DNA from: an uncultured Acetobacteraceae bacterium
GTDB lineage: Bacteria > Pseudomonadota > Alphaproteobacteria > Acetobacterales > Acetobacteraceae
Direction of reading: 5' to 3'
Assembly (NCBI GenBank): GCA_903895595.1
Contig: CAITUP010000081.1
Span: 1-56,840 of the forward strand
Length of the DNA: 56,840 nt
Numbering within the stretch: position 1 is the stretch's first letter; the number at the start of each line of letters is the position of its first letter. Positions 29,522 through 56,840 of the stretch are shown one piece after another. The translations under genes were made by a program, and so were the position numbers. The notes below the pieces were generated by a model. The model worked only from the letters and a program-made list of their open reading frames with translations, had not been told where the DNA came from and did not search any database.

Positions 29522-32500
29522 TCAGTCGGCCTCGGCTTCGCCCAGCTTCGCCGCCAGGGTCGGCATTCGTCGCGTGGACGGCCCCATCAGCCAGGACTGC
29601 AGCCGCGACAGGTAAAGATACACGACCGGAGTCGTGTAAAGCGTCAGCACCTGACTCAGCGCCAGCCCGCCGACCATCGCGAAGCCGAGCGGCTTGCGCA
29701 GCTCCGATCCCGCGCCTTCACCCAGCATGAGGGGCAGGCCGGTGAGCAGCGCCGCCATGGTGGTCATGAGGATGGGCCGGAAGCGCAGCAGGCAGGCTTG
29801 GCGGATCGCGTCTTCGGGCGCGACGCCGCGCTGTCGTTCGGCGGAGATGGCGAAGTCCACCATCATGATGCCGTTCTTCTTCACGATTCCGATCAGCAGG
29901 ATCACGCCGATCAGCGCGATCACCGACAGATCGATGCCGGCGACGCGCAGGATCAGGAACGCTCCGACACCGGCCGAGGGCAGCGTGGACAGGATGGTGA
30001 TCGGCAGAACGTAGCTTTCGTAGAGGATGCCCAGGATGATGTAGACGGTGATCAGCGCCGCCGCGATCAGATAGGGCTGGGACGCCAAAGACGCCTGGAA
30101 CGCCTGCGCGGTCCCTTGGAAGGACGTGCCGAGCGAGAGGGGCACGCGCATGTCGCGCATGGCGGCTTCGATGGCGGTGACCGCGTCGCCCAACGCCGCG
30201 CCCTGGGCGAGATTGAAGCTGATGGTGATGGCCGGGAACATGCTCTGGTGGCTGATGGACAGCGGCCGCACGGGGACGGTGGTCCATGACACGAAAGATC
30301 CCAACGGCACGGCCTGACCGGTGGAGGATTTCACGTACAGCTTGCCGATGGTCTCCAGGTCGGACGCCATGCCCGGCAGCACTTCCAGGATCAGCTTGTA
30401 GGTGTTCACCTGGGTGAAATACTGCGCGATCTGTCGTTGGCCGAAGGCGTCGTACAGCGTGTCGTCGATCGCCTGCGGTTGAATACCGAACCGCGCGGCC
30501 TTGTCGCGGTCGATGGTCAGCATGGCGGTGGTGCCGCCGGACTGCTGATCTGTGGTGACGTCGCGCAGCATCGGCAGGCCGCGCAGCTTGTCCAGCACCT
30601 TGGGCGCCCAGATAAACAGCTCGTCCAGATTGGCGTCCTGCAGGGTGTATTGGAACTCGGTCTTGGACACACGTCCGCCGGTGCGGACGTCGGGGATGGC
30701 TTGGAGGAACAACTGCCCCCCTTCCACCTTCGCCAGCTTCGCTCGGTTGCGGGCAATATACGCCTGCGCGGAGCCCCCGACCCGTTGCTCCCACGGTTTC
30801 AGCGCGATGAACACACGGCCGTTGTTCGACGTCTGGCCACTGAGGCCCGTGCCCATATTGGCGGCATAGGCCGCGGTGTCGGGGTCCTGGGCAATGACGT
30901 CGGTCAGCGCCTTCTGCAAGGCGAACATCCGCTTGAAGGAGATATCCTGCGCCCCTTCCGTCGTGCCCAGGATCACGCCCGTGTCCTGCGCCGGGAAGAA
31001 TCCTTTGGGGGAGATCACGAACAAATAGGCCGACAACGCCATGGTGGCGAAGAAGGTCATCAGGGTGATGAAGCGGAAGCGCAGCGCGATATCCAGCGTG
31101 ACGCGGTAGCCGGCCAGCAAAGCGGTAAAGAAGCTCTCGATGACGCGGTAGGCGACGTTATGCTGGCCCTGATGGTGGTGCAGGAAGCGGGAGCACATCA
31201 TCGGCGTCAGCGTCAGCGACACCACAGCGGACACGACCACAGCGATGGTGACCGTCATCGCGAATTCTCGGAACAACCGCCCGACGATACCGCCCATCAG
31301 CAGCAGCGGGATGAACACCGCGATCAGGGACGCGCTGATGGACACGATGGTGAAGCCGATTTCGGCGGCGCCTTTGATGGCCGCGTCCATCGGCCGCATA
31401 CCGTCCTCGATGTAGCGGAAAATGTTCTCCAGCATCACGATGGCGTCGTCCACGACGAAGCCCACCGCGATGGTCAGCGCCATCAGCGACAGGTTATCAA
31501 GGCTGTAGTCCATCAGATACATCACCGCGAAGGTGCAGATCAGCGACACCGGCACAGTGATCGACGGGATGATGGTGGCCCAGACGTTGCGCAGGAACAG
31601 GAAGATCACCATCACGACCAGCCCGATGGAAAGCATCAGGGTGAACTGCACCTCATGCACCGACGCACGAATGGTGAGCGTGCGATCAACGATGGTACTG
31701 ACGGAAATCGAGGGCGGAATCGCCGCCTGCAACCGCGGCAGTGCGGTCTTGATGCGCTCCACCGTTTCGATGACGTTGGCGCCGGGCTGCTTGAAGATCA
31801 TCAGCATCACGCCACGCTGGCCGTTCTGGAGCCCGCCGACATAGGCGTTTTCCGGCGCATCCACCGCCTGACCGATGTCCTTCACCCGGATCGGGGCGCC
31901 GGACTTCCAGCCGAGGATGACGTTCTCGTACTCGCCCGCCTTGGTCAGCTGGTCGTTGTTGTACAGCGCATAAGCGCGCTGATCCGCGTCGATGGTGCCC
32001 TTGGGGGCATTCACGGTGGTGGTGATCAGAACCGACCGCACATCCTCCAGCGTCAGGCCCATGGCCGCGAGCTTGGCGGGATCGACCTGCACCCGCACCG
32101 CGCGCTTCTGCTCGCCGGCGATAAACACCTGCGCCACGCCGGACAGCTGCGAAATCTGCTGCGCCAGAACGGTGTCGGCGTAGTCGTTGACCTCGATCAG
32201 CGGCAACGTGTCGGAGTTGACCGCCATGATCAGGATCGGCGCTTCCGACGGATTGACCTTATAGTAAGACGGGGCCGAGGGCAGGTTGCGCGGCAACTGC
32301 CCGCTGGCGGCGTTGATCGCGGCCTGTATGTCGCCTGCCGCGGCGTCGATGTTGCGATCCAGGTCGAACTGGATCGTGATCTGGGTGGACCCGAGCACGC
32401 TGATCGAGGTCATCTGCGCGATGCCGGCGATCTGGGCGAACTGCCGCTCCAACGGCTGCGCAACGGAGGTCGCCATGGTCTCCGGGCTGGCGCCGGGGAA

Positions 32501-32650
32501 CTTGGTGTTGACGTTGACGGTGGGGAAATCGACGCGCGGCAGCGGCGCCACCGGCAGCAACGGGTATGCGGCCAAACCCACCAGAACGAGCGCGGCGATG
32601 AACAGCGAGGTGCCGACCGGACGATGAATGAACGGGGTCGAGATGCTCAT
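29522..32650 (-). CDS. RND efflux pump inner-membrane transporter (MdtB/MdtC type)
   Basis: Proton-driven drug/biocide exporter of 1042 aa with the AcrB fold: TM1 near residues 13-33 (HRPVGTSLFIAALVLVGLAA), two large periplasmic loops, and TM clusters around 335-540 and 860-1020. PLPRVDFPTVNVNTKFPGAS is the N-terminal start typical of the MdtB/MdtC/MuxBC group. TM4 has TIAVGFVVDDAIVMLENIFR with the paired Asp of proton relay; FAMTVTIAVVVSAVVSLTLT follows. It lies 24 bases downstream of the adaptor gene. No outer-membrane channel gene is adjacent; a TolC encoded elsewhere would be required. Confidence 0.94.
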   Translation of the reverse strand: MSISTPFIHRPVGTSLFIAALVLVGLAAYPLLPVAPLPRVDFPTVNVNTKFPGASPETMATSVAQPLERQFAQIAGIAQMTSISVLGSTQITIQFDLDRNIDAAAGDIQAAINAASGQLPRNLPSAPSYYKVNPSEAPILIMAVNSDTLPLIEVNDYADTVLAQQISQLSGVAQVFIAGEQKRAVRVQVDPAKLAAMGLTLEDVRSVLITTTVNAPKGTIDADQRAYALYNNDQLTKAGEYENVILGWKSGAPIRVKDIGQAVDAPENAYVGGLQNGQRGVMLMIFKQPGANVIETVERIKTALPRLQAAIPPSISVSTIVDRTLTIRASVHEVQFTLMLSIGLVVMVIFLFLRNVWATIIPSITVPVSLICTFAVMYLMDYSLDNLSLMALTIAVGFVVDDAIVMLENIFRYIEDGMRPMDAAIKGAAEIGFTIVSISASLIAVFIPLLLMGGIVGRLFREFAMTVTIAVVVSAVVSLTLTPMMCSRFLHHHQGQHNVAYRVIESFFTALLAGYRVTLDIALRFRFITLMTFFATMALSAYLFVISPKGFFPAQDTGVILGTTEGAQDISFKRMFALQKALTDVIAQDPDTAAYAANMGTGLSGQTSNNGRVFIALKPWEQRVGGSAQAYIARNRAKLAKVEGGQLFLQAIPDVRTGGRVSKTEFQYTLQDANLDELFIWAPKVLDKLRGLPMLRDVTTDQQSGGTTAMLTIDRDKAARFGIQPQAIDDTLYDAFGQRQIAQYFTQVNTYKLILEVLPGMASDLETIGKLYVKSSTGQAVPLGSFVSWTTVPVRPLSISHQSMFPAITISFNLAQGAALGDAVTAIEAAMRDMRVPLSLGTSFQGTAQAFQASLASQPYLIAAALITVYIILGILYESYVLPITILSTLPSAGVGAFLILRVAGIDLSVIALIGVILLIGIVKKNGIMMVDFAISAERQRGVAPEDAIRQACLLRFRPILMTTMAALLTGLPLMLGEGAGSELRKPLGFAMVGGLALSQVLTLYTTPVVYLYLSRLQSWLMGPSTRRMPTLAAKLGEAEAD

Positions 32651-42272: not shown

Positions 42273-45200
42273 CTACGGTCTCATTAACGCCTTCAGCCGC
42301 GCAAGAGCCTGCGTTACCGCCGCGTCGAATTCCTCCGCCAAACCGCGCGCCTCCGACAGATCGCCGCGCCGGCACGCCTGTTCGATCGCGCGGGCCGTGC
42401 TGCTGACGATCATGGCACCGCAATTGCCGGCCACCGACACCAGATCGTGCGCTTCCTTCGCCGCAGCCATCGCGTCTTCCCCGGCCAGACCAGCCCCCAG
42501 ACGCTCGGCCCGCGCGCCGATGTCCGCGATGGTCTCATCGAGGAACGCCGCGAACTGATCGCCGGGCAGGATCGCCCGCAGCGTGTCGATCGTTTCCTCG
42601 CTGACAACCGGCGCACCCGGCGCTGCCACGACCCGCATCGTCCCCGAGGCGCCTCCGGTCGCGGCCGCCAGTTTTTCGAACAACGCCGCGGCGCTTAAGG
42701 GCTTGCTGAGATAGGTGTCCATGCCGGCCGAACGATAACGCTCCTCCGCGCCCGCCAGCGCATCCGCGGTCAGCGCGATGATCGGCACATTCCGGGCCGG
42801 CGCCGGTAGGGACCGTATGCGGCGCGTCGCCTGAACCCCGTCCATGACCGGGATTTGGACGTCCATCAGGATGACATCGAAGGTGTCCCGCATCGCGGCT
42901 TCCACCGCCTCGCGCCCGTTCGTCGCGACCGTCACGGAATGGCCTTCGGTTTCCAGCAGCACCGTCAGGAGACGTCGATTGATAGGGTTGTCGTCGACGA
43001 CCAGTACTTGCAGTTTTCGGCTGGCCGGAAGGGCGGCGTCCGTCGGGATCGCGGCCGGTCCCGGCAGGGGTGCCTCCCCGGCGACGGCCGGCAACGGTAC
43101 GGTGAAATAGAAGCAGCTCCCCTGCCCCTGTGTGCTGGTTACGTCGATCGTTCCGCCCATGAGTTCCACCAGTTCCCGGCTGATCGTCAGGCCGAGGCCG
43201 GTGCCGCCGTAACGACGCGATATGGAACTATCCGCCTGGGTAAATTTTTGGAAAACCCGGTCCCGGCTCTCGGCCGTCATGCCGATGCCGGTATCGGCGA
43301 TTTCGAACCGCGCCCAGTCGGGTCCCGCATCCGGCGCCGCCGACACGCGGACTTCGACACCGCCCTGTTCGGTGAACTTCACCGCGTTCCCGACAAGATT
43401 GAGCAACACCTGACGCAACCGGATCGGATCGCCGTGCACCGTCCGACTCAGCCCCGGTTCGATGGTCACGGACAACGTCAGGCGCTTCTCCCGCGCGTGC
43501 AGCGCCATGAACCCAACCGCCGCCCGAACAGTACCCTCCAAATCGAAGTCGCACGGCTCCAGTTCCAGCCGGCCCGCTTCGAGCTTCGATATATCGAGGA
43601 TATCGTTGATCACGACCAACAGCGCCTTGGCGGAATCGAAGACCCCCTGGGCACATTCCGTCTGCTGAGGGTCCAGTTTACCGCGCAACAAAACTTCCGT
43701 CAGGCCGATGATACCGTTCATCGGGGTGCGGATTTCGTGCGACATGTTCGCCAGGAATTCCGTCTTGGCCTGATTGGCCGAGACCGCCTGGGCACGCGCC
43801 GCCTCTGCCTGCGCCCGAGCGGCATCGACCCCGGCCTCGGCGGCCTTGCGTTCGGTGATGTCGGCATAAATGCGCACAATACCGCCGTCCGGCAGCGGCG
43901 CGCTGCGAATTTCCAGGATCGTGCCGTCTGGCCGTTCGCGCTCGTAAATATGGGCGGTATCTAAAATACCGCCAGCACGCAGCAATTCCGCGACATCCTG
44001 CGTTGCTCGGTCGAATTCCGCATGTTGACGTTGATATTCCAGAACCTGACCGAAATGGGGCCGCGACGCGATCAGGGCCGCCGGCAGATCCAACAGGGCC
44101 ATCGCGCGACGGTTGCATATCGCCACGGTCCGGTCGGCCGTGATCATCATGATCCCTTCGTCCATATGTTCGAAGGTGGTCTCCAGCAGCGTGGATTTCT
44201 CGGCTACCTCGGTTTGGCTGACGCGCAGAGCTTCGGCCGCGGACCGCAATTCGGCCGCCTGCTCCGCCAGCCGCGCGCTGCTGCGCTCCAGTTCCTCATT
44301 GCGTTGAGATAGAGATTCTTCCGACCGCGACAGGCGGTTGAATTGCGCGCCCAACAGACTGAACAGGACCGATAAAGCGCCTATCATCGCGATGGTCCCG
44401 GCGACAATGTAAACGCTTTGATGCCGCCAAACCGCGAGTGCCGTCCCTATGGGCACGACAACATTCACGAACAGCGGAAAGTCCCGCAGACGCTCGACCC
44501 AGATGGATCGCGGCCCATTCGCGGTGAGCCCCTGAGACACGTAGTGTCCGCCGCCGCGCGCGGCAACGCGATACCACGGGAAGTAAGCTGGCACGCGTTG
44601 TCCGATGATCACGCCACCATCTTCGGGATGGTGCAGCAAAATCGTGCCATCGTCCCGCACGATCGTGACGCTGCCGTCGCTGCCGGGCCGAGCGGCCTCG
44701 AACAACTCCCGGAAATAACGCAGCGAAATCGCCCCGGACACGATACCGATCGGTTGCCCGTTCCGGTCCGTCACCCGCCGCGCGAGATAGACAGTCCAGT
44801 CGTTGGTTACCTCGCTCCTTTGCGGGATGCTGATATAGCTGCCATTGTCCGTGACGGACTGGAAGTGAATGAAAACGTCCTTGTCCGATACCATGGCGCC
44901 GGAGGGTGGCCAGGCGCGCGACGTGTTGATCACCCGTCCCGTCGAATCGAGGATCACGATCGCTTCCAGCTGCGGCATATGCTCCCGGCGCAGTTGCAAC
45001 TGACGGTACACCGCCTCTTTCGAAATCGCCGCGCGGAACCGGTCCGGTGTGTCGACCCCGTCGTCCACGAGTTGATCGCGGACGTTTTGCACAACCAGAT
45101 CTACAACCTGTAACGCCCGCGTGGTCTGCTCCGCGATCACCAGCCCGATCTTGGCCTGATTGCTTTCGTATTGATCGACCGCGGCGTCTCGCGCTGTCCA

Positions 45201-45320
45201 TATCGACAACCCGGCGGCGATGGCCAGCAACGCGACCAGCGTGGCGAAGACCAGCGGCAGCAGGCGAAGCCGGCGCGCGGGGATGGGATCGGCGCTGCTG
45301 CCCGACACCTCCGCGGTCAT
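42273..45320 (-). CDS. Hybrid sensor histidine kinase with REC and HPt domains
   Basis: Membrane-bound sensor of 1015 aa. TM1 is near residues 20-40, a periplasmic dCache-like sensor covers about 45-285, and TM2 ([20 protein letters not shown]) lies near 300-320. A coiled coil leads into a PAS domain (about 385-500, ending [13 protein letters not shown]). The phospho-acceptor His is in [15 protein letters not shown] near residue 527, with ATPase boxes DTGIGM and GTGLGL. The receiver Asp is in [13 protein letters not shown] near 818, and the HPt His is in [14 protein letters not shown] near 957. The terminal phosphorelay target is not adjacent. hyuB follows after 29 bases. ATG at 45320 is preferred over GTG at 45329. 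Confidence 0.92.
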
Positions 45321-45377
45321 GCGACGCACCCGGATGATGCCTGATCGGTCGTGACCTGGGCCACCCGTCCCATAGGC

Positions 45378-45686
45378 TTAACTCCGGCGGCGGGATCGGT
45401 GAGGCGTTTTACGGTTGGTCAGGGACAGCGCGAGCCCGACCGCGACCAGCGCCAACGACGCGGGAGGTAGCCAAGCCGGGCGTAACATCAGCGGCAAGGC
45501 CAGCTTGTTCCAAATCCACGGCCCGAACCACCGGGCGATGGCAACTTGAATGCGTCCCGGCATATCGCCATCGATCCGGGCCAGCAATTCCCCAAGCAAA
45601 GTCGGCCGCGGCTCCAGGGTTCCCAGAGCCACGGCACAGACGATCATGACGGCCGCGAAGACGGCCAGGGCACGCTGTATGTTCAC
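45378..45686 (-). CDS. Small two-helix membrane protein downstream of msrP
   Basis: Unrecognised protein of 102 aa. The N-terminal helix ALAVFAAVMIVCAVALGTL could be a signal anchor. A loop with conserved-looking WFGPWIWNKLALPLMLRPAW follows, then a second helix SLALVAVGLALSL and an Arg/Lys-rich tail that should be cytoplasmic. It overlaps the msrP stop by four bases, so it is very likely made together with MsrP. It is not MsrQ, which has about 200 residues and six helices. It has the coding character of a real gene rather than a shadow. Confidence 0.7.
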   Translation of the reverse strand: MNIQRALAVFAAVMIVCAVALGTLEPRPTLLGELLARIDGDMPGRIQVAIARWFGPWIWNKLALPLMLRPAWLPPASLALVAVGLALSLTNRKTPHRSRRRS

Positions 45687-46597
45687 ATGAACAGTTTCTC
45701 GCCCTTTCGCCCTTCATACAAGCCGGCGACGAAATCGCCGTAGCCATTGTAGATCTGCGTCGGCACCATCTCCCCGGACCCGAGCAGCTTTTCGCGCGCC
45801 TGGGACCAGCGAGGGTGGGAGACGGCGGGGTTCACGTTGGCCCAGAAACCGTATTCCCCAGGGTTCAACCCCTCCCAGAACGTCTCCGGCCGCTTTTCGG
45901 TGAAGCTGATCTTCACGATGGATTTGGCCGATTTGAAGCCGTATTTCCACGGTAGCGCGATGCGCAACGGACCGCCGTTCTGCGGCGGGACCGGTTTGCC
46001 ATACAGGCCCGTGACCATGAACGCGAGGTCGTTGGCGGCTTCGTCGATCGCCAGACCTTCCGTGTAAGGCCAGGGGTAGTAAGGGCTGCGGAGGCCGGGC
46101 ATCGCTGCTTTATCGGCCGCGGACTGAAACACGACGTATTTGGCGGACCCCAGCGGTTCGGCGATCGCCAGCAGTTGCGCGAGCGAGAAGCCGCTCCATG
46201 GCACGGTCATCGCCCAGGTTTCGACGCAGCGATGGCGGTAGATGCGTTCCTCGGTCTGCACCTGCTTCAGCAGGTCGTCGAGGCCGATCGTGCGCGGCTG
46301 CTTCACCAGCCCGGCGAGTTCGATCGTCCAGGGCCGCTGCTTCAGGGCCTGCGCCTCTTTCCAGATGCTCTTGGTTTCGTCGAACTCGTAAAAATTGTTG
46401 TAGGTCGTGGCATATTTCTCGTCGGTCAGCGCCCGGCCCGCCACGAATTTCGCATTCGGTTCGGCGAGCGCTGGCAGCGCGCCGGCAACCGACAGCACAC
46501 CGGCCGCCTTCAGCAACCCGCGGCGCCCCAACATCGCGGATTCGGGGGTGACGCGGGATTCGGAAATTTCCCAACCGCGGCGGCGAAGGATATGCAT
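45683..46597 (-). CDS. msrP: Protein-methionine-sulfoxide reductase catalytic subunit MsrP
   Basis: Periplasmic molybdenum enzyme that repairs methionine sulfoxide in envelope proteins, 304 aa. A Tat signal with twin Arg (LGRRGLLKAAG) precedes the mature start. The molybdopterin Cys124 is in RHRCVETWAMTVPWSGF, and the usual YPWPYTEGLAIDEA and PPQNGGPLRIALPWKYGFKS segments are present. Start at 46597 has GGAGA upstream; the frame continues further 5' without similarity. The haem-b membrane partner MsrQ is not beside it; instead a small two-helix protein overlaps its stop. It is divergent from a D-cysteine desulfhydrase gene. Confidence 0.94.
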   Translation of the reverse strand: MHILRRRGWEISESRVTPESAMLGRRGLLKAAGVLSVAGALPALAEPNAKFVAGRALTDEKYATTYNNFYEFDETKSIWKEAQALKQRPWTIELAGLVKQPRTIGLDDLLKQVQTEERIYRHRCVETWAMTVPWSGFSLAQLLAIAEPLGSAKYVVFQSAADKAAMPGLRSPYYPWPYTEGLAIDEAANDLAFMVTGLYGKPVPPQNGGPLRIALPWKYGFKSAKSIVKISFTEKRPETFWEGLNPGEYGFWANVNPAVSHPRWSQAREKLLGSGEMVPTQIYNGYGDFVAGLYEGRKGEKLFM

Positions 46598-46682
46598 GGC
46601 GTGTCTCCTGACTGGTTTCACGTTGTATGACGAACCAGGATGAGGAACATTACATCGCTTCCCACCGTCCAGGACCGAAAAA

Positions 46683-47693
46683 ATGCATCTCGCCCGCTTC
46701 CCCCGCGTCCGCCTGTTCCCCACCCCCACGCCCCTGGAGAAGCTGGAGAATTTCAGCAAAGCCTTGGGTGGCCCGGACATCTGGATCAAGCGCGACGACT
46801 GCACCGTCGTCGCGACCGGCGGCAACAAGGTCCGCAAACTCGAATGGCTCATCGGCGAGGCCCGTCAGCTCGGCGCCACCCACATCGTGACGCAGGGCGC
46901 GGTGCAGTCCAACCATGTGCGCCAAACCGCCGCCGTCGCCCGCCGCTTCGGCATGAAGTGCACCGCGCTGCTGGAACACCGAATCGAGACCAACGACCGC
47001 GACTATCTGAACTCCGGCAACGTGCTGCTGGACAAGCTGTTCGGCTGCGCCATCGAATACCGCCCCGGCGGCGTGGACATGAACGCCGAGGCCGAAAAGA
47101 AGGGCGAAGAACTGCGCGCCCAGGGCGTCAACGCCTACGTGATCCCCGGCGGCGGATCGAACCGCGTCGGCGCGCTGGGCTACGTATCCTGCGCGCAGGA
47201 GCTGATGCAGCAGGCCGATGAGATGGGGCTGAAAATCGATCTGCTCGTCACCGCGACCGGCAGCGCCGGGACTCACGCCGGTCTGGTGGTCGGGCTGCAT
47301 GGGATCAACGCGCAGGTGCCGGTGCTGGGGATCGGCGTGCGGCTGCCTCGCGATCGGCAGGAAGCCAACGTGCACAAGCTGGCCGAGGCGACCGCCGACT
47401 ACCTGGGCATGAAGGGCGGCATCCCGCGCGACGCGGTCGTCGCCAACTGCGACTACGTCGGCGACGGCTACGGCATCCCGACCGAGGGCATGGCGAACGC
47501 CGTCCAAATGCTGGCGCGGGAGGAAGGCATCCTGCTGGACCCCGTCTACTCCGGCAAGGCAATGGCGGGGATGATCGACCTGATCCGTTCGGGAAAGATC
47601 GGGAAGGACCAGACGGTGGTGTTCCTGCACACCGGCGGCGCGGTCGGGCTGTTCGGCTATACCGGCTATCTCGAAACCGCGATGGAGGCGTAA
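46683..47693 (+). CDS. D-cysteine desulfhydrase / ACC deaminase-family PLP enzyme
   Basis: PLP fold-type II enzyme of 336 aa, cytoplasmic, that degrades D-cysteine to pyruvate, sulfide and ammonia, or a related D-amino acid. The Schiff-base Lys is in [11 protein letters not shown] (near residue 53). [20 protein letters not shown] follows, [15 protein letters not shown] is the phosphate-binding part, and [19 protein letters not shown] is also typical. ACC deaminases have other catalytic residues in the middle, so D-cysteine desulfhydrase (DcyD-type) is more likely. It is followed after four bases by a MetE-like gene. Confidence 0.88.
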
Positions 47694-48874: not shown

Positions 48875-49807
48875 TCAAGCTGCGGCGGGCTGCTCGTCGC
48901 ACCTGCCAGCATAACCTGACCAAAATCGCCCCAGTGCGATCGCGCTGATCCCCACCCGCAACTCCGCACCGGTCTCGTGCGGGATCAGGCTGACCACCCC
49001 ATGGTCCGGCAATGCCGCGACCGGGCAATCCCCAAGCAACGCCCGATAGTTGGCGCGGTGCATGAAATGGGGACGCAGAGCGGCCGCTCCACCTGGCAGC
49101 GCGCGGGCACGAAAAAAAATCGCGGCACGTGGGGCATCGTTGCCCGAACGCGCGATGCTCGCCCCGATCTCGGTCCAGGTCAGCGCCAATCGCAATGGCA
49201 TCCCGGTCAACTGCCCGATTGCGTCGAGTACCGCCTCTCTGCCGGCCGCGGGACTATCCCGCAGGATATGGCGCAATCGTGCTTCGGTCGGGCTGCGCAG
49301 AATGCAATACGCCTCCTCCCATCCCTGACCGGGATCGAAGCCCGTCATGTGCAGGCGGGAATCGGACAGACAAACGGGCGCGCGTCCAGGTAATTCCAGG
49401 TAGAGCTTCCCCCGCATGCCGGTTGCGGAACCGCGCAGTCCCAACCAACATCCCCACTTCAAATGCGCACCCGCCTGTAGCCCGCGCCACAACTCGACCA
49501 AACCCGGTTCGGGGCGAGGCAGGCCGAGCGCGGACAATAGCGTCAATGCCGCGTCCAGCCGAGCATGCTCGGGGTAATCCGGCCCAGCGACTTCGAGCGA
49601 TATGCGGAACGTTTCCTCATGCGTCGAAAAACCGCATTCGATCGGGCACCCGTCGGTGTTCAGTCCGCTGAAACTCCATGCGATGTCCGGCCAGGAACCG
49701 GCCTCCAGCGACTTCAGGCATCGCCCAAGCATGCCAGCGGCACGCGGTTGGGCGTGCCCGAATCCGGCCAAAAACCGGCCGACCTCGCGTATCGCCGTCG
49801 CCGTCAC
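48875..49807 (-). CDS. Uncharacterised 310-aa protein, last gene of the beta-module operon
   Basis: I do not recognise this gene. The protein has 310 aa, no signal peptide and no membrane helix. After a helical start, FSGLNTDGCPIECGFSTHEE and FRISLEVAGPDYPEHARLD form alternating strands, LKWGCWLGLRG and GKLYLELPGRAPVC follow, and YRALLGDCPVAALPDHGVVS precedes RVGISAIALGRFWSG. The repeated strand-helix pairs with Glu/Lys/Tyr on strands remind me of the ABBA prenyltransferase fold, but no definitive motif is seen and this is weak. Its ATG overlaps the stop of the upstream 835-aa gene by four bases, so it is coupled to the operon of large paralogues. Confidence 0.6.
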   Translation of the reverse strand: MTATAIREVGRFLAGFGHAQPRAAGMLGRCLKSLEAGSWPDIAWSFSGLNTDGCPIECGFSTHEETFRISLEVAGPDYPEHARLDAALTLLSALGLPRPEPGLVELWRGLQAGAHLKWGCWLGLRGSATGMRGKLYLELPGRAPVCLSDSRLHMTGFDPGQGWEEAYCILRSPTEARLRHILRDSPAAGREAVLDAIGQLTGMPLRLALTWTEIGASIARSGNDAPRAAIFFRARALPGGAAALRPHFMHRANYRALLGDCPVAALPDHGVVSLIPHETGAELRVGISAIALGRFWSGYAGRCDEQPAAA

Positions 49808-52311
49808 GGCATATCGCCGACCAGTACGACCGGATCCTGCGTCGACACCAAATCCCCCCGGTGCTGCTGGCCGTTCGTCCCGACGGTGATGATGCGATAG
49901 CCGAACGCCGATTTCGACCGATTCAGCAACGGGATATGCAGTCGTTGCATATCCAGTTTACCGGGCGGCAGCAACAGCGTCGTCTGGAATGCGTATCCCG
50001 CATCCTGGTCCTGATACTCGACTTCCAACAGCGCGGTTTTCGTTTTAGCGGCGTCGATCGCGGGTTGCACGACGACATCGATACCGCCGGTAAACGCATC
50101 GTTGACGATGATCGCGCTCGCGGTGCTGGACACGGGGGCCGAGGTGAAGCTGGTCCCGTCCTTCAGGACACACTTTGTCGTGTACGTGTAAGTGCGCTGG
50201 GTTTTATCCGATAACCGAACTTTCCATGCCTGCGGCTGATCGCCGGGATGCACGATGTAATTGGCCGACGTCTGCCACCCCCCGGCTTCGGCGTAATGCA
50301 GCGTCACCTCCACCCGGTCCACACTGTTGGCATCAATTTTCCCAGGGCTGAGCGTAACCGTCAGAAAACCCAGCAAGGCGTAGGGATCGAGCGTGACCTG
50401 ACGGTTTTCCGTCGTCACCGCGGGAAGTTGATAACGATCCTGCGCGCCGACCCACCCCGACTGCGGATCGAAGCTGTAATCTGCCGTGTAGGTGAATTCG
50501 GTGGCTCGAACCTCTCCTTCGAACACATCCCATGAGGTGGGGGCGGTTTGCGCAGCGGTGAAATCGAATTCGCCATGCTTGGCGTCGTCGCTGTTCGGAT
50601 CGCCATAGTCGATCGCGACGTGAGCCGTTTGCAGTCCGATGCCGGCGAAATCGTGCGGCGGGGTAATGGCGACCGAAAATTTGGAGAAGAACGGATCAGT
50701 GCCATCGACCTGCAAGAAATGCTTGCTCTTGTCGATCTTGTCCAACATCAACCCGAAATAACCTTGCGGCGAGAAGGTGCGCTGCACCGCATCCATCCGG
50801 TTATATTCGTAGGTGACGGTCTTCTGTTCGTCCTGATGCACGAACTTCAGCCGCAGCGAGACACCGAAGGGCGACGCCGCCGACGATGCGGCGCTCGCAA
50901 CCCCGGCAAGCGCTTTCGCGGCATCGGCGACCTGCGCGCCGGCGCTGGGACCGGTCGTTGTGATCGTGGACGGTCCCGCGGGGGGCGCACCGGCCGGCGA
51001 CGGTGCGGCGGGTCCACCGGCCCCGGCGGGTGTGACTCCGCCGGGTGCGGGCGGGTTGGCTCCGGCGGGAGAAGGTACCGGCGCCGGTGTGGGTCCGGTT
51101 CGCGATGGCGTGGCACCGCTCGATGCCGGCTGAGCACCAGCTGGTGCCGGGTGGGCTCCCCCGGGCGCGGGCTGCGCCCCGCTGGGAGCAGGATGAGCAC
51201 CCCCAGGCGCCGGTTGCACCCCGCCGGGAGCAGGATGAGCACCCCCAGGCGCTGGCTGCGCACCGCCGGGAGCAGGGTGAGCACCCCCAGGCGCTGGCTG
51301 CGCACCGCCAGGAGCAGGATGAGCACCCCCAGGGGCTGGCTGCGCACCGCCAGGAGCCGGATGAGCACCCCCCGGAGCCGGTTGCGCGCCGCCCGACCGA
51401 ACGGGGCTACCGCCCGTTGTGGTTGTGGTCGTCGAACTGCTGGAAGACTGCGGCGCCGTCGGCACCGTGTTCGCATCCGCGGCCGCGGCCGTCGCTGGCG
51501 AAAGGCTCGGCGTGAACCACTGCGACAGGATCTGGTCCTTGAACAAAGCCAGCGCCTGCTGCTCTTTGTCAGCGTTGGATTGATCGTTGGTCAGATTGAC
51601 CACTTCGATTTTGATCGCGCCGTCCTGCCGCAATTTCTCGAACGTGGCGTCGACGCCGGCCGAAACGTAATAGGCCTGCGCGGTCAGGCCGACGCTGAAA
51701 CTATCGTACACACGCTTCAAATCGGCGGTGATCTTCACATCGAGCGCCGGACGGACGCCGGTGAATTTCAGATCGTAGATCACTCCCACGGGCGCCATGC
51801 CGTCCTCGAAGGCGGCCTTCATGATGCTGGCCCCTTCCTCCGTCAGTGTCAGCGAAAACAATGCATTGTTGTCGCCGAACAACTCCGGCGAGGTGGCACC
51901 ACTGATTTTCTCCACTGCCTCGAACGTGCCGGGTGCCGCAGTGTTGGCGGTACCGCCGCTGCCTTGCAAATCCAGTGCGACAACACGGACGGTACCTTCG
52001 TCGAACGGCACCGGCGCGATGTGCGGATTGGTAGCATTCGGAAACATCGACTGGATCTCGCCCAGAATTTTGTCCCTGGTCCGGTCGGAGATCTTCAGGC
52101 AAGTCGTCACGTTCAAAAATCCGACGCCCTTCACACCCGAGGACGCCAAATCTGGCGCGTATTCGATCAACAGAAACTGCGGTTCGTCGCTATCCGGCAT
52201 CTTTGCCAGATCGACCGGCGCGGGAAGATACCAAAACTGATTCGGATCGATATGATCCGGGAACACCGTCGCGCCATCGACCGTAAGCGAATCCGAAGAC
52301 AAGAGCAGCAT
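49804..52311 (-). CDS. Large beta-module protein, paralogue 3 (with GGAxPAP repeat linker)
   Basis: Uncharacterised protein of 835 aa, without signal peptide or membrane helix. Residues 10-120 match the two upstream paralogues (VDGATVFPDHIDPNQFWYLP, then PVPFDEGTVRVVAL), and 140-270 carry the shared SLTLTEEGASIMKAAFEDGM and VIYDLKFTGVRPALDVKIT block. Residues 284-440 are a low-complexity linker rich in Ser/Thr, then GGAQPAP/GGAHPAP heptads, then Pro/Ala/Gly. The second half has the HFLQVDGTDPFFSKFSV signature and beta modules such as VDRVEVTLHYAEAGGWQ and ALLEVEYQDQDAGYAFQTTL. ATG has AAGGAG that overlaps the preceding stop. Confidence 0.8.
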   Translation of the reverse strand: MLLLSSDSLTVDGATVFPDHIDPNQFWYLPAPVDLAKMPDSDEPQFLLIEYAPDLASSGVKGVGFLNVTTCLKISDRTRDKILGEIQSMFPNATNPHIAPVPFDEGTVRVVALDLQGSGGTANTAAPGTFEAVEKISGATSPELFGDNNALFSLTLTEEGASIMKAAFEDGMAPVGVIYDLKFTGVRPALDVKITADLKRVYDSFSVGLTAQAYYVSAGVDATFEKLRQDGAIKIEVVNLTNDQSNADKEQQALALFKDQILSQWFTPSLSPATAAAADANTVPTAPQSSSSSTTTTTTGGSPVRSGGAQPAPGGAHPAPGGAQPAPGGAHPAPGGAQPAPGGAHPAPGGAQPAPGGAHPAPGGVQPAPGGAHPAPSGAQPAPGGAHPAPAGAQPASSGATPSRTGPTPAPVPSPAGANPPAPGGVTPAGAGGPAAPSPAGAPPAGPSTITTTGPSAGAQVADAAKALAGVASAASSAASPFGVSLRLKFVHQDEQKTVTYEYNRMDAVQRTFSPQGYFGLMLDKIDKSKHFLQVDGTDPFFSKFSVAITPPHDFAGIGLQTAHVAIDYGDPNSDDAKHGEFDFTAAQTAPTSWDVFEGEVRATEFTYTADYSFDPQSGWVGAQDRYQLPAVTTENRQVTLDPYALLGFLTVTLSPGKIDANSVDRVEVTLHYAEAGGWQTSANYIVHPGDQPQAWKVRLSDKTQRTYTYTTKCVLKDGTSFTSAPVSSTASAIIVNDAFTGGIDVVVQPAIDAAKTKTALLEVEYQDQDAGYAFQTTLLLPPGKLDMQRLHIPLLNRSKSAFGYRIITVGTNGQQHRGDLVSTQDPVVLVGDMP
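51142..51393 (-). repeat. In-frame tandem repeat encoding GGA[QH]PAP heptads
   Basis: Twelve heptads (residues about 307-390 of the 835-aa protein) plus degenerate flanking copies, with Q and H alternating so that the DNA period is 42 bases. Copies near 51200-51340 are almost identical in sequence and the outer ones diverge. This looks like a minisatellite expanding a flexible Pro/Ala/Gly linker. Confidence 0.9.
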
Positions 52312-52323
52312 GGGAGAAACTCC

Positions 52324-54639
52324 TTACGAAAGCTGGCTGAGCCTGATCGTGACGGTGTTGCTGTCGGCAGCCGTCCAGTCGATCGATTTGGTCTGACCGT
52401 TGTCCAGCTGGATATCCACCCGAAACTCGGGACCGACAGACGAATCCAGGTAATCGTATGCGAAACGCTGCACGTCGGACATGCGCACGAATTTGAACGA
52501 TTTCGACACGTTGACCTTGTTCGCCGGATCGACGTAGCGCACCTGCACATCCGCCTCCGTCACATGCACCGACCCGAAATCGACCTGCTCGGGTTTGATG
52601 GTCAGAATTTGGTGGCCCTTCATTCCCGGCTGAATTGTCAGGAATTTTTCGGTGGTGACCGACGACGGTACCGACCAAATCTGACCGTTCAAGTTGATGA
52701 TCTTCGCTTCGAATGCAATCGCCGTCTGGGTCGGGTCCTCCCGGTCCGCGGTGAATGTTTGCGCCCCTGCGTTGGCTTTGTTGAAAATATAGCTCTGCTG
52801 TTCGGTTGGATTGTCGAGATCGGGATAAGCGACCGAGACCAGGACCTGATCCGCTTTGGTCCAATCCACGGCCGGCACGACCAGCAAAGTCGATTTCGCC
52901 GGGAACGGATCGACGATGTCGATTTTGCCCGCATCTGTCGTCAGCCAGGGCGCGTTGATCACCCCGCCGGAGACCTGCGTGTAATTCACCTGATACGATA
53001 GCGTCCGCTTCGCCGGATCGCGAATGAATAGCGCCCAGCTTGCCTCGGGCGTCTGGCTGTTCAGCAGCAGACTCGTGCGCATGTGGATGCGGTTGTCGTC
53101 GTCGTCGTAGCGGCAGGCGATCTCCACCAGCGAATACCTGTCCCACCGGAATGAATCGGCTCTGATCGGTATCACGGTCGTCGAATAGAGCCTGGCCCGC
53201 GGCTGGATGCTGAGGACATCGCCGATTTCCGTCAGATCGTCGCTGGATATCTGCGCCGGTCGTTCAGCCGTGTCGACGCCGGTGAAATTCACCGTATAGG
53301 TGTAGTGCACAGGCCGAACCATCTTGCCGCCCGCCATCGCACTGGTCCAATCGACCGAGGCTGTCGGATTGGCCTTGTTCAGCGCAACCGATTTGATAAT
53401 GCCGTTGTAGTTCATGTTCACATCGATCGAACCGATCCCGTCAGCGTCGAAGTCCGCGAAACTGGTCACTTTCAATGTACGCCGCTGGAACCAGGGATTA
53501 TCCAGATCCACCTTTTCGATAAACCGATCCAGCGTAACCCCGCCATGCGCCAGGGTTTGGAACAGGCCGGAAAGATGAGCCTGCGGATAAATGGTCCGCT
53601 GGACCGAGGTGCGTTCCGACAAATTGACGTCCAACACCTTTTTGTCGGTGCGCGTCAGATCGACCTTCTTGTAGGAGAAACAGGCTAGGCCCGACACCCC
53701 TCCGGTGGCGATCAGCCCGCCGATGGAGGCCGCCGCGCCTTCCACCTGTTCCAGCGTACTGGGCTTGCTGGGATCGGGTGGCGCGAGACTCGATTCGAAG
53801 AACGTGTTCTTGATCATGTCGTAGACCTCGGCCACGGCCTTATCGCGGTCGCCCGCGATATCCTTGCCGCCATCGGAATCGGTCACGAACGTGTCGATTT
53901 CCAATGAGATCACCCGGTCTTCGATCAGCTTGTCGACCACCTTCTCGATATCGGTCGAGAAAAACAGAAATCCCGCATGGAAACTGTCGTCGAGGTGGGT
54001 TTGTACCCGTTCCCAGTCTACATGCAGATGCACCCGGAACGCGGGCCGGAGGCCGACGAATTCCAGCGAATAAATCACAGCGATCGGTTGAATCTCGCCA
54101 CGCATGGCCTTTTCCATGACCGTCGCGCCGTATTGATCGAGTTGCACCGAAAAGCTGGCCTGATTGTCGCCGTACAACGATGGTTTCGTGGCGCTTTGAA
54201 TCCCAACGACGAACCGTGGCCCGGTTGCCGCCGGCACCGGAGCCGGCGCGGGTGTCGCGGGCGGCTTCGCGCCCGGCACCGGCGGATCGGCGCTTTGCGC
54301 ACCCAGTATCTGCAGCCGTACCGCCCCGTCGATGAACGATACCGGCGACAACCGAGGCGCGTCGTCCAGATGTGCCTGTTGTTGCAGCTTCTGCGCCACT
54401 TCCGTCAGCACATCCGGATTGAGCCCGAGATTGACGTCGAAATTGATGAACCCGCCCGTGCCGGCCGCCCCGGCATATTCGATCAGTTGCAGCTGCGGCA
54501 CATCGGACCCGCTCGCCATGTCCTTCGACACGGTCAAATGCGGCATCATCGGCAAATAGTAGTATTGCAGACGATCGGCATGATCGGGAAACAGCGACAC
54601 GCCGTCGATGAGGTAATAGGGCGGGTTCAAGTACAGCAT
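52324..54639 (-). CDS. Large beta-module protein, paralogue 2
   Basis: Uncharacterised 771-aa protein, no signal peptide. The start YYLIDGVSLFPDHADRLQYY aligns with both neighbours. SPVSFIDGAVRLQILG near 98-113 leads to a Pro-rich link (118-140), PSLYGDNQASFSVQLDQYGA (153-172) and VIYSLEFVGLRPAFRVHLHV (188-207). VDLDNPWFQRRTLKV (377-391) is the shared middle signature. From about residue 485 three modules follow of roughly 90-100 residues, each with a strand pattern like VLVSVAYPDLDNPTEQQSYI and a YxxxxxxxDG end. A short Pro/Ala linker sits where paralogue 3 has its long repeat-free insert. AAGGAG is upstream of the ATG; 12 bases separate it from paralogue 3. Confidence 0.8.
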   Translation of the reverse strand: MLYLNPPYYLIDGVSLFPDHADRLQYYYLPMMPHLTVSKDMASGSDVPQLQLIEYAGAAGTGGFINFDVNLGLNPDVLTEVAQKLQQQAHLDDAPRLSPVSFIDGAVRLQILGAQSADPPVPGAKPPATPAPAPVPAATGPRFVVGIQSATKPSLYGDNQASFSVQLDQYGATVMEKAMRGEIQPIAVIYSLEFVGLRPAFRVHLHVDWERVQTHLDDSFHAGFLFFSTDIEKVVDKLIEDRVISLEIDTFVTDSDGGKDIAGDRDKAVAEVYDMIKNTFFESSLAPPDPSKPSTLEQVEGAAASIGGLIATGGVSGLACFSYKKVDLTRTDKKVLDVNLSERTSVQRTIYPQAHLSGLFQTLAHGGVTLDRFIEKVDLDNPWFQRRTLKVTSFADFDADGIGSIDVNMNYNGIIKSVALNKANPTASVDWTSAMAGGKMVRPVHYTYTVNFTGVDTAERPAQISSDDLTEIGDVLSIQPRARLYSTTVIPIRADSFRWDRYSLVEIACRYDDDDNRIHMRTSLLLNSQTPEASWALFIRDPAKRTLSYQVNYTQVSGGVINAPWLTTDAGKIDIVDPFPAKSTLLVVPAVDWTKADQVLVSVAYPDLDNPTEQQSYIFNKANAGAQTFTADREDPTQTAIAFEAKIINLNGQIWSVPSSVTTEKFLTIQPGMKGHQILTIKPEQVDFGSVHVTEADVQVRYVDPANKVNVSKSFKFVRMSDVQRFAYDYLDSSVGPEFRVDIQLDNGQTKSIDWTAADSNTVTIRLSQLS

Positions 54640-54664
54640 CGTTACATCTCCTTCGCGAACCGCG

Positions 54665-56840
54665 TCAATTCGGCAACATCAGCACGAGATCGGCATCGCT
54701 CGCCTCGACGGGCTGCGTGCGGATGACCTGGGGTGGCGTCGTTCCGACATAATAGGTCGCGGACCATGTGTAGCTCGTCCGGTTCGGGTCGCGGGCATAG
54801 AATGTCCAGGGCTGTGGCGCGACATTCGGACGCAGCGTGACCTGCTGCTTGACGTCGAGGTGGTTGGCCGGGTCGGTGTACTGGAAATTCACCTGGATCA
54901 GCTTCACCTTCGTGAAATCGATCAGTGCCGGGTCCGGCAGCACCGAAATGACCACTTGGTTCGGCGGCCCGAACTCGATCAGACTGGACGTGGTGGTGAC
55001 CTCCGGCATGTTCTCCGTCGTGTGGTTTTTGTAGCTGACAACGCCTGAATAGGTGATCTTTCCCTTGCTGTGCGCCACAACGGGGATCGCCCAATCCTTC
55101 TGCCGGTTTTGCGCGGTAAACAGGAAATCGGTCTCCTGCTCCAGACTATGGGCCTCATCGGTATATTTCATCTTCAGGAAGATGTTTTCGATGCCGGCTG
55201 CGAAATCTCCCTCCGACAGGAAGCTGTAAGTCGCCGTGGTGAAGGGGCTGTTGATGGTCAGCCGGGGCATCGGAACATCCGCCCAGTCGGTCACCATCTG
55301 CGTCCCATCCGCCATGATGTATGTCGTCTGGTACTGCGCGATCTGGTCGATGTCCTTCAACAGCACGACCAGCATTTGGTCGGTCTTTTTGTCCTTGTCG
55401 AAGGTGAATTGCTGGTTGATTGGCTGACCGGTGGCATCCACATCCGGATATTTGATGGTAACCTGGACCTGGGGCGTCTTCGTGAAATCGATATTGCCCA
55501 TCGCGATCTCGACAAACAACACACCGAGGTTGTTCGCGCTGATCGTGACTTGGCCCTTATCGGTTTCTACCAGGGGCGACTGATAGGCTTGGTTCGCATC
55601 GCGATAGTTGACCGAGAACGAGTACGCATAGTGCATGTCGCCATTGTTGGTATTCGACACGAACTTGCCGATGTCGTCCGGCTTCGTCATATGGAAATCT
55701 TTGATCTCCGCCGGATTGATCTTGTTGTATTCGCAATGGACATCGACGCTGGTGATGCCGTAACGCGCGAAATCGACGTTGACCGCGACCGAGGCGTTCA
55801 CCGTGGCGAAGAACGGGTCATTGGCATCGACCTCGACCACGAAATCTTCGAATTTGAAGCCCATGTCAGCGATATTCGGCATCGTTCCACCTTGCGTGGT
55901 CCCGAACGAAACGCCCATCCGTTCGGTCAACGTGCGGTAGAAGCTGGCAGATTCCCAGGTCGTCTGCAGTTTTTGGATGTGATCCATACCATGATCGCCG
56001 CGATCCTCGGCAGCTTTGATGTCCGGCAGGACCGAGGTCTTCACCGCCGTCTCGATTTGGCCCCATCCCCAGTTGGTGATTCCGTCCTGGATTTTCTTGC
56101 GCAGGTCGGCGTCGGTGATGTAGCCGAGGCTGTCGAAATTGAAACTCACGCCACCGGCACTGGAACTGGTGAACGCTTCGTGCATCCGGTCGACCTCGGT
56201 ATTGTTGCCGCTAAGCCAGGTGCTGCCGCTTTTGTCGACCGATTGATAGAAGCTGTAGAACTTCTGAGAGTTGAACCAGACCGACCCGCTGACCGGCGGA
56301 AAGGTCGCCGGGAAATGCAAATCGTATGAAACCTGCGCCACGCCGCCCGATCCTTTCAGGCAGGCTTCCAGCACCGTCGCACCCTCTGGGGTAAGCTCCG
56401 CGGTGAAGGGGCAAATCATCGAACCGAACAACGAAGGTTTGCCGGGGCTGTCGATCTTTCCGACCAGAACGCCGGAGCTGTCGAGCAGCGTCAGACTGGC
56501 CGTCGCGTCAGTATAAGTGATGTGTTCGATCTGCGCGCTCGCCGGCTGGCCCTGAGCGTTTTTGATGCCCTTCTCTTGGACCTTGGTATCCAGGGCTGCC
56601 TGGATCTTAGCCATTTTATCCTTTGCGACGACAAATTCGCAGTCGAACACGACGAAGCCGCCGCCCTTTTTGCCATCGGCGCGGGACGCATCGAGCTTGT
56701 ATTTGATCATTTTGAACACCGGCTTTTGGGTGTCCGGGTCGATCCGGAAGCGCGGCTTCTCGGGCAGGACGTAGAACACGTCCTGCCGGTCGTCGTCGCC
56801 GAATACCGGCAGTCCTTCAATGATGTACTGGTTGCCAAGG
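54665..56840 (-). CDS. Large beta-module protein, paralogue 1 (5' end outside window)
   Basis: The frame is open to the window edge, so the visible 724 residues lack the true start; a GTG at 56779 lies inside conserved sequence and is not the start. YIIEGLPVFGDDDRQDVFYV aligns with the beginnings of paralogues 2 and 3. FTAELTPEGATVLEACLKGS is the shared GA block, VVEVDANDPFFATVNASVAV the middle signature. C-terminal modules include VQVTIKYPDVDATGQPINQQ, IFLKMKYTDEAHSLEQETDF and LIQVNFQYTDPANHLDVKQQ. It is the first of the four genes seen in the operon, with 25 bases to the next gene. Function unknown. Confidence 0.8.
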   Translation of the reverse strand, partial: LGNQYIIEGLPVFGDDDRQDVFYVLPEKPRFRIDPDTQKPVFKMIKYKLDASRADGKKGGGFVVFDCEFVVAKDKMAKIQAALDTKVQEKGIKNAQGQPASAQIEHITYTDATASLTLLDSSGVLVGKIDSPGKPSLFGSMICPFTAELTPEGATVLEACLKGSGGVAQVSYDLHFPATFPPVSGSVWFNSQKFYSFYQSVDKSGSTWLSGNNTEVDRMHEAFTSSSAGGVSFNFDSLGYITDADLRKKIQDGITNWGWGQIETAVKTSVLPDIKAAEDRGDHGMDHIQKLQTTWESASFYRTLTERMGVSFGTTQGGTMPNIADMGFKFEDFVVEVDANDPFFATVNASVAVNVDFARYGITSVDVHCEYNKINPAEIKDFHMTKPDDIGKFVSNTNNGDMHYAYSFSVNYRDANQAYQSPLVETDKGQVTISANNLGVLFVEIAMGNIDFTKTPQVQVTIKYPDVDATGQPINQQFTFDKDKKTDQMLVVLLKDIDQIAQYQTTYIMADGTQMVTDWADVPMPRLTINSPFTTATYSFLSEGDFAAGIENIFLKMKYTDEAHSLEQETDFLFTAQNRQKDWAIPVVAHSKGKITYSGVVSYKNHTTENMPEVTTTSSLIEFGPPNQVVISVLPDPALIDFTKVKLIQVNFQYTDPANHLDVKQQVTLRPNVAPQPWTFYARDPNRTSYTWSATYYVGTTPPQVIRTQPVEASDADLVLMLPN

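Follow-up and report, generated by a model that had tools for sequence, protein, structure and literature searches.

Several described systems bear on the locus considered here. The D-x-D-D motif is the catalytic motif of class II terpene cyclases, while the ABBA, or PT-barrel, fold is that of the bacterial DMATS-type prenyltransferases. The peptidase/EAD conflict systems (Kaur et al., 2020; PMC7159879) combine a core with exchangeable peptidases (caspase, trypsin, subtilisin), and the main text of that paper contains neither the word prenyl nor the word terpene. Here we analyze a stretch of 56,840 nucleotides (the window) from an uncultured Acetobacteraceae bacterium (contig CAITUP010000081.1 of assembly GCA_903895595.1), which ends within an operon of large paralogous genes. 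The operon is one copy of an ordered cassette of diverged paralogues accompanied by a protein of the DMATS-type fold, and this cassette is widely and sporadically spread among bacteria.

Gene content of the operon

The original prediction, made from the sequence of the window, had described three tandem large paralogues followed by a coupled 310-aa gene, and all four open reading frames (ORFs) are present on the minus strand at the positions it gave. Gene A (54665..56839) encodes 724 aa within the window and is open at the contig end; B (52324..54639) encodes 771 aa, with an N-terminal family domain followed by a string of immunoglobulin (Ig)/fibronectin type III (FN3)-like beta-sandwiches; C (49804..52311) encodes 835 aa, and its N-terminal domain (N-domain) is separated from a middle signature by a long Pro/Ala/Gly linker; and D (48875..49807) encodes 310 aa and has a GTG start. 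The three sets of motifs quoted for A, B and C are found in their translations. The gaps of 25 and 12 bases are confirmed, as are the AAGGAG ribosome-binding sites, read from the sequence 8 bases before the ATG of B (54648..54653, minus strand) and of C (52320..52325, minus strand, overlapping the stop codon of B), and the 4-base overlap of C and D. None of A–D has a hydrophobic N-terminal stretch in a 19-residue Kyte-Doolittle window, a crude test and not SignalP, which agrees with the predicted lack of export signals.

The description of three tandem genes plus one captured only a part of the operon. The window edge is the contig end, and another contig of the same genome (C104) overlaps it by exactly 141 bases. 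It adds the start of A (four more residues, 728 aa in total) and three co-directional upstream genes, own1 (657 aa), own2 (589 aa), and own3 (194 aa), the last of which shares the N-terminal domain with A–C. The genes in the window are therefore the tail of an operon of at least seven genes. D is the last of them, the next gene being on the opposite strand. The G+C content is 0.569 in A, 0.585 in B, and 0.652 in D, compared to 0.653 in the rest of the window; the low values in A and B are consistent with uneven constraint as well as with the core of the operon having been transferred.

The large paralogues

A, B, and C are homologous far beyond chance (BLASTP E-values 7e-19 for A/B, 3e-14 for A/C, and 2e-33 for B/C), and, judging by the sequence of the N-terminal domain, they form one family together with own3. 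The AF2 model of B has a predicted local distance difference test score (pLDDT) of 79.2 and a predicted template modelling score (pTM) of 0.45; its structure matches are confined to residues 385-760, and in this model the C-terminal half of B is a string of Ig/FN3-like domains. In C, the linker PAPGGAH/PAPGGAQ is encoded by a 42-base tandem repeat (51125..51393, minus strand; Tandem Repeats Finder, 5.6 copies, 90% matches). In this region, the orthologues displayed carry other low-complexity linkers, some with a conserved insert; such an insert, weakly OmpA-like, is present in the C-type protein of 11 of the 40 loci described below.

No significant family was found for A, B, C, and own1–own3 in Pfam, PADLOC, and PHROGs, or for A–D in NCBIfam, which was run on these four proteins only. 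PDB searches with A alone and with alignments of B, own1, and own2 yielded nothing below E 0.2. In these searches, the six cassette genes other than D matched no curated family, and they are annotated as hypothetical wherever annotation was seen. A literature search with most subscription papers out of reach, but including the accessible parts of PMC7159879 and PMC8195603, yielded no description of the cassette.

The suggestion of a particle or fibre finds no support in these data. A had no match in 50,697 phage records (A being the only query), peptides of A had none in the IMG/VR viral contigs, and A–D matched no PHROGs family. The viral structure matches of B are generic multi-Ig proteins with TM scores of 0.20 or less, the N-domain not having been searched alone. 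We did not retain the reading of the cassette as a phage particle. A complement/alpha-2-macroglobulin reading, based on Ig strings, a toroid, and proteases, was not retained either, as the structure matches are generic.

The DMATS-fold protein

The original prediction described the 310-aa gene as coupled to the paralogues and gave it no identity; here, it is assigned to the DMATS-type ABBA fold. The predicted structure of D is a PT-barrel of five beta-beta-alpha-alpha repeats, and its closest structures are CymD, 5-/6-DMATS, IptA, PriB, and other natural-product prenyltransferases, with 12–16% identity in structural alignments. A profile of 23 D orthologues matches 6zrx with E 8e-8 and CymD with E 4e-6, while single sequences match Pfam Trp_DMAT weakly in 8 of 23 cases (best E 0.012). 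In the alignment of the orthologues to 6zrx, Glu57 is conserved in 22 of 23, Arg68 in 20, and Lys134 and Tyr136 in all 23; Tyr167 is also kept, so that across phyla these five residues range from 20 to 23 of 23. From work on FgaPT2, we take Glu57, in a Pro-x-Glu motif, to be the general base, and Arg68 and the Lys-x-Tyr motif to be diphosphate-binding. The second Lys-x-Tyr motif has changed, and hence we place D in the ABBA fold superfamily rather than among proven DMATS enzymes.

Lone relatives of D were also observed. One, in genome G337 (L106:7117-8073), looks like a deletion remnant; its neighbour is a Rieske-like gene that, in another genome of that genus, is found at the flank of the complete operon. 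More distant ones, near 9-10 kb of L107, L108, and L109, share a common neighbourhood in three genomes of one family and are a separate ABBA-fold lineage.

Distribution of the cassette

A profile of 12 paralogues (A1) was used on the family, class, and phylum genome sets. In the family, it matched 3 of 200 genomes, all strongly and including the window's own, and none of the three other genomes of the same genus in that sample. In the class, 5 of 387 genomes were matched (own, G229, and G417 strongly, two others with E 1e-4 to 3e-4), and in the phylum, 5 of 397 (own, G629, and G927 strongly, G810 and G906 at about 3e-16). As few candidates were scored per genome, five in the family search and two in the class and phylum searches, misses are possible and these counts are lower bounds. 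The loci of G271 and G575 (E 1e-4 to 3e-4) were fetched and not kept as members. Two plasmid lineages carry the cassette, Paracoccus, with two near-identical plasmids, and Pararhizobium. In G906, the locus L049:9248-11652 (minus strand) encodes a short distant relative of the N-domain (G906_09); the preceding G906_08 is N-domain-like by eye only and starts with a signal-like hydrophobic stretch.

For a scan of species genomes, a narrow alignment of B proved suitable, and broader ones of 12 or 7 paralogues were too diverse. One scan of 84,980 species genomes yielded 40 loci in 37 organisms, four of the loci belonging to one Cohnella; since the scan profile was B, loci lacking a B-like gene would be missed. 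The hosts are Cyanobacteria, Pseudomonadota, Nitrospira, Paenibacillus, Cohnella, Actinobacteria, and myxobacteria. The cassette thus spans six bacterial phyla with a sporadic distribution, and we infer that it has spread by horizontal transfer. In Cohnella faecalis (L086, L087, L067, L091), the operon is present in several copies, all decayed and fragmented, that lie on different contigs.

Conserved gene order and phylogeny

All 40 loci contain at least three paralogue ORFs (some of them fragments); own1 was found in 28, own2 in 25, D in 24, and a toroid-like protein in 8. The genes were called with a home-made ORF chooser, and in some loci the ORFs are merged or on the wrong strand. Of the co-occurrence that the original prediction had proposed as a check, the part concerning the paralogues holds, as they are found together and never singly in all 40 loci of the B scan, while their link with the 310-aa gene is seen in 24. 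Nine of the 16 loci lacking D are fragmented or run into a contig end (L054, L055, L066, L067, L070, L072, L081, L086, L087). The order own1-own2-(own3)-A-B-C-D is seen in Lysobacter, Hydrogenophaga, Siccirubricoccus, Nitrospira, and Paenibacillus oceani. In several Streptomyces and Sphaerisporangium loci, A-B-C (often with D) is kept, and the left arm is rearranged and lies on the opposite strand. In L075, L076, L079, L081, L082, L084, and L092 from these two genera, the first 7 kb (minus strand) hold a second, divergent arm that encodes two additional types of paralogue, and in the tree each type has a separate clade.

The tree was constructed from 120 N-domains by a quick method, with the Shimodaira-Hasegawa-like approximate likelihood ratio test (SH-aLRT) as the only support and no clade test; 9 of 129 rows were dropped because they contained too little of the N-domain, and the tree excludes the window's own genome (OWN), PcB, G906, G229, G629, L053, L054, L055, L067, L086, L087, and L091. 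The A clade contains 30 A rows among 33 (support 96), the B clade 26 B rows among 28 (support 99), and the C clade 28 C rows among 30 (support 98). The remaining rows in these clades are one from Pararhizobium and one from G417, both unlabelled, and rows mislabelled by the position rule; in the tree, there are five such mislabels as read by eye (three in L070, one in L076, and one in L080). Among the B rows, the exceptions are those of L085 and L090, which lie immediately outside the B clade, and that of L089, which is more distant from it; the C-position rows of L085 and Pararhizobium are exceptions on the B side. The last paralogue of L090 and two or three Paracoccus rows are not placed, and the row L056_5300 was read in the wrong frame. 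For A, B, and C, operon position mostly predicts the clade. As these clades span phyla, A, B, and C are probably three long-standing roles that predate the spread over phyla, and not recent duplicates.

Accessory genes

The toroid-like protein adjoins D in its 8 loci, and also in G229, G417, and G810. A D-x-D-D-T motif is present in 7 of 7 aligned members, and the best PDB matches of the toroid profile are weak, ent-copalyl diphosphate synthase (E 0.015) and squalene-hopene cyclase (E 0.94); the two members scanned alone had no Pfam match. In Paracoccus, a toroid-like region appears to be fused to a D-like region, as seen by eye and with Pfam (E 0.076).

Inside the core blocks of the 40 loci, there are 18 same-strand non-core ORFs, five of which encode peptidases: caspases in L057, L063, and L088, a subtilase in L090, and a Cys/His protease-like protein in L085. 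The latter, a peptidase by motif only with no Pfam match, aligns with a protein of Pararhizobium and with one encoded just after D of L068. A further ORF, in Cohnella L091, looks by eye like a broken caspase, and caspase-like fragments also occur in L086 (BLAST cluster); we consider the remaining 12 of 18 to be similar to own1 or own3, judging by HMM, BLAST cluster, or eye. On the downstream side, L074 carries M48 and L085 a Nal1-type protein. The Paracoccus operon is flanked by trypsin-like genes on both sides, an EAD1 gene, and genes of an ATP-binding protein and a PLD-like protein; the trypsin-like peptidase and the EAD1 protein share an N-terminal region. Directly after this operon on the plasmid is a tyrosinase-family gene with a twin-arginine-like leader (L013:21950-23479, minus strand). 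The caspase and DrmC models of PADLOC match the L057 caspase and the Paracoccus PLD protein, respectively. Outside the core, ATPases of ATP-binding cassette (ABC) transporters are found repeatedly in the flanking regions of four sources, one of them the window's own genome.

The window's own genome encodes a stand-alone caspase-like protein of 290 aa on contig C120 (L104:8441-9313, minus strand), which is 37–39% identical over nearly full length to the operon caspases of Hydrogenophaga, Nitrospira, and Paenibacillus oceani. That it serves the operon is a guess, as the gene is unlinked.

Genes flanking the operon

The other genes of the window identified with Pfam are ordinary: a hybrid sensor kinase (42273-45329), an RND transporter (29522-32650), a molybdopterin oxidoreductase (45683-46852), and a pyridoxal phosphate-dependent enzyme (46683-47693). 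About 6 kb upstream of own1, squalene-hopene-cyclase-like and phytoene-desaturase-like genes (L009:6160-9389, minus strand) resemble, by eye, the hopanoid pathway; with transporter genes in between, they are probably unrelated to the operon.

Possible function

We suggest that own1–own3 and A–C would form one hetero-oligomeric, mostly cytosolic assembly. D may attach a prenyl group to an aromatic acceptor, which would be either a residue of one of the subunits or else a peptide or small molecule that the assembly carries. In genomes having a toroid, this terpene-cyclase-like protein could act on that prenyl chain, and in some genomes, once the assembly is triggered, a subunit or another target would be cut by a peptidase, the family of which varies. 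The likeliest use, and the weakest step, would be a device for inter-microbial conflict or self-protection. It is suggested by the exchangeable peptidases in a minority of loci and by the sporadic distribution, as in the systems of PMC7159879. The idea that the paralogues are subunits of one assembly, already part of the original prediction, fits the observation that position mostly predicts clade; a particle or fibre, suggested there as an example of its form, is not supported. Taken as a whole, this chain of assembly, prenyl transfer, peptidase, and conflict device is tentative, its chance of being correct falling a little short of even.

A number of observations weigh against it. D matches no Pfam family when the window's sequence is used alone, its second Lys-x-Tyr is Glu-x-Tyr in 22 of 23 orthologues, from which its activity may be altered or lost, and among the 40 loci, 7 that are not cut off (L053, L074, L075, L076, L083, L089, L090) lack it at the threshold used. 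Conversely, in four genomes (G337, G409, G886, G912), D relatives occur and the 19 kb retrieved contain no paralogue. The window's own operon contains neither a peptidase nor a toroid, the toroid profile matches nothing in its genome, and no peptidase was recognised in most of the 40 loci, whose flanking genes were Pfam-scanned in part. At E 0.1, no PADLOC model matches any of the seven proteins that make up the core in the window's genome. Finally, the model of B, with its pTM of 0.45, was searched whole.

Other explanations draw on the same data. The resemblance of D to the natural-product enzymes CymD, 5-/6-DMATS, IptA, and PriB, the D-x-D-D-T toroid beside it and the Paracoccus toroid/D-like fusion, and the ABC ATPases in the flanks would all suit a biosynthetic cassette, in which D, together with the toroid in loci that have one, produces a small molecule or peptide that is prenylated and cyclised, the large proteins are a carrier, store, or export scaffold, and the peptidases mature a precursor peptide. 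However, the ATPases are located outside the core block, the listed neighbour clusters show no recurrent tailoring enzyme or carrier protein by the core, except for genus-level flanks, and we know of no biosynthetic cluster in which one or two enzymes are accompanied by six other core genes. We consider this reading rather doubtful. It is also unlikely, in our view, that D is a former enzyme that has become a purely structural or sensing subunit of the assembly. The change to Glu-x-Tyr and the replacement of a barrel Tyr by Phe in 18 of 23 orthologues point in this direction, but the putative general base and the other four residues are kept in 20 to 23 of 23 sequences across phyla, unlike in a decayed active site.

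Equally improbable appears an extracytoplasmic or surface assembly, with Ig-like repeat proteins attached to peptidoglycan via the OmpA-like insert of C and leaving the cell by lysis or by an unknown route. The insert, with weak profile matches to YfiB and YiaD, the similarity of the Ig/FN3 strings to adhesins and pilins, and the signal-like start of G906_08 beside a distant relative are consistent with it. Yet the insert is absent from the window's C, its match to YfiB has E 0.037, and Pfam finds no OmpA family but IglE_N in 4 of 11 inserts (best E 2e-4). Moreover, the core is also present in Gram-positive hosts, and neither A–D nor the upstream genes show an export signal in the crude hydrophobicity test, own2 having one hydrophobic window (1.73 at residue 39).

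The boldest form of the reading we favour, that of an assembly with prenyl transfer, is an undescribed machine that gene transfer would have carried into at least six phyla: a hetero-oligomer of up to six subunit kinds, several with Ig repeats, prenylated by dedicated enzymes (the chains being cyclised in some hosts) and triggered by an exchangeable peptidase. To our knowledge, no protein assembly is modified by a DMATS-fold enzyme, and this one would be the first; we would be surprised if it proved correct in full. Should the prenyl acceptor be a subunit, the ABBA fold would be seen to prenylate proteins in a new biological setting. The cassette, with its seven or more genes, is shared by bacteria as different as proteobacteria, bacilli, and actinomycetes, and the prenyltransferase-fold gene, along with the in-block peptidases of some hosts, makes it assayable: what D prenylates, which proteins compose the assembly, and what the peptidase does.

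Comparison with known systems

The model of D has the same ABBA fold as bacterial DMATS-type prenyltransferases. Unlike them, D is at the end of a scaffold operon, outside any recognised natural-product cluster; it is 12–16% identical to these enzymes, about 40 residues shorter, and has Glu instead of Lys in the second motif. The companion toroid resembles class II terpene cyclases such as ent-copalyl diphosphate synthase and squalene-hopene cyclase in its D-x-D-D-T motif (7 of 7) and the weak profile match around it, but consists of one toroid-sized domain of about 260–300 aa. Residues 385-760 of B are similar to multi-Ig/FN3 proteins, including pilins, adhesins, the TIE protein, and alpha-2-macroglobulin. 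The systems of Kaur et al. (2020) differ in that Pfam recognises neither an EAD nor an NTPase among the seven core proteins of the window's genome, the other loci having been scanned in part. Still, the cassette is similar to these systems (PMC7159879) in having a core with exchangeable peptidases, and the Paracoccus operon directly follows genes annotated as a trypsin-like peptidase, EAD1, and an ATP-binding protein.
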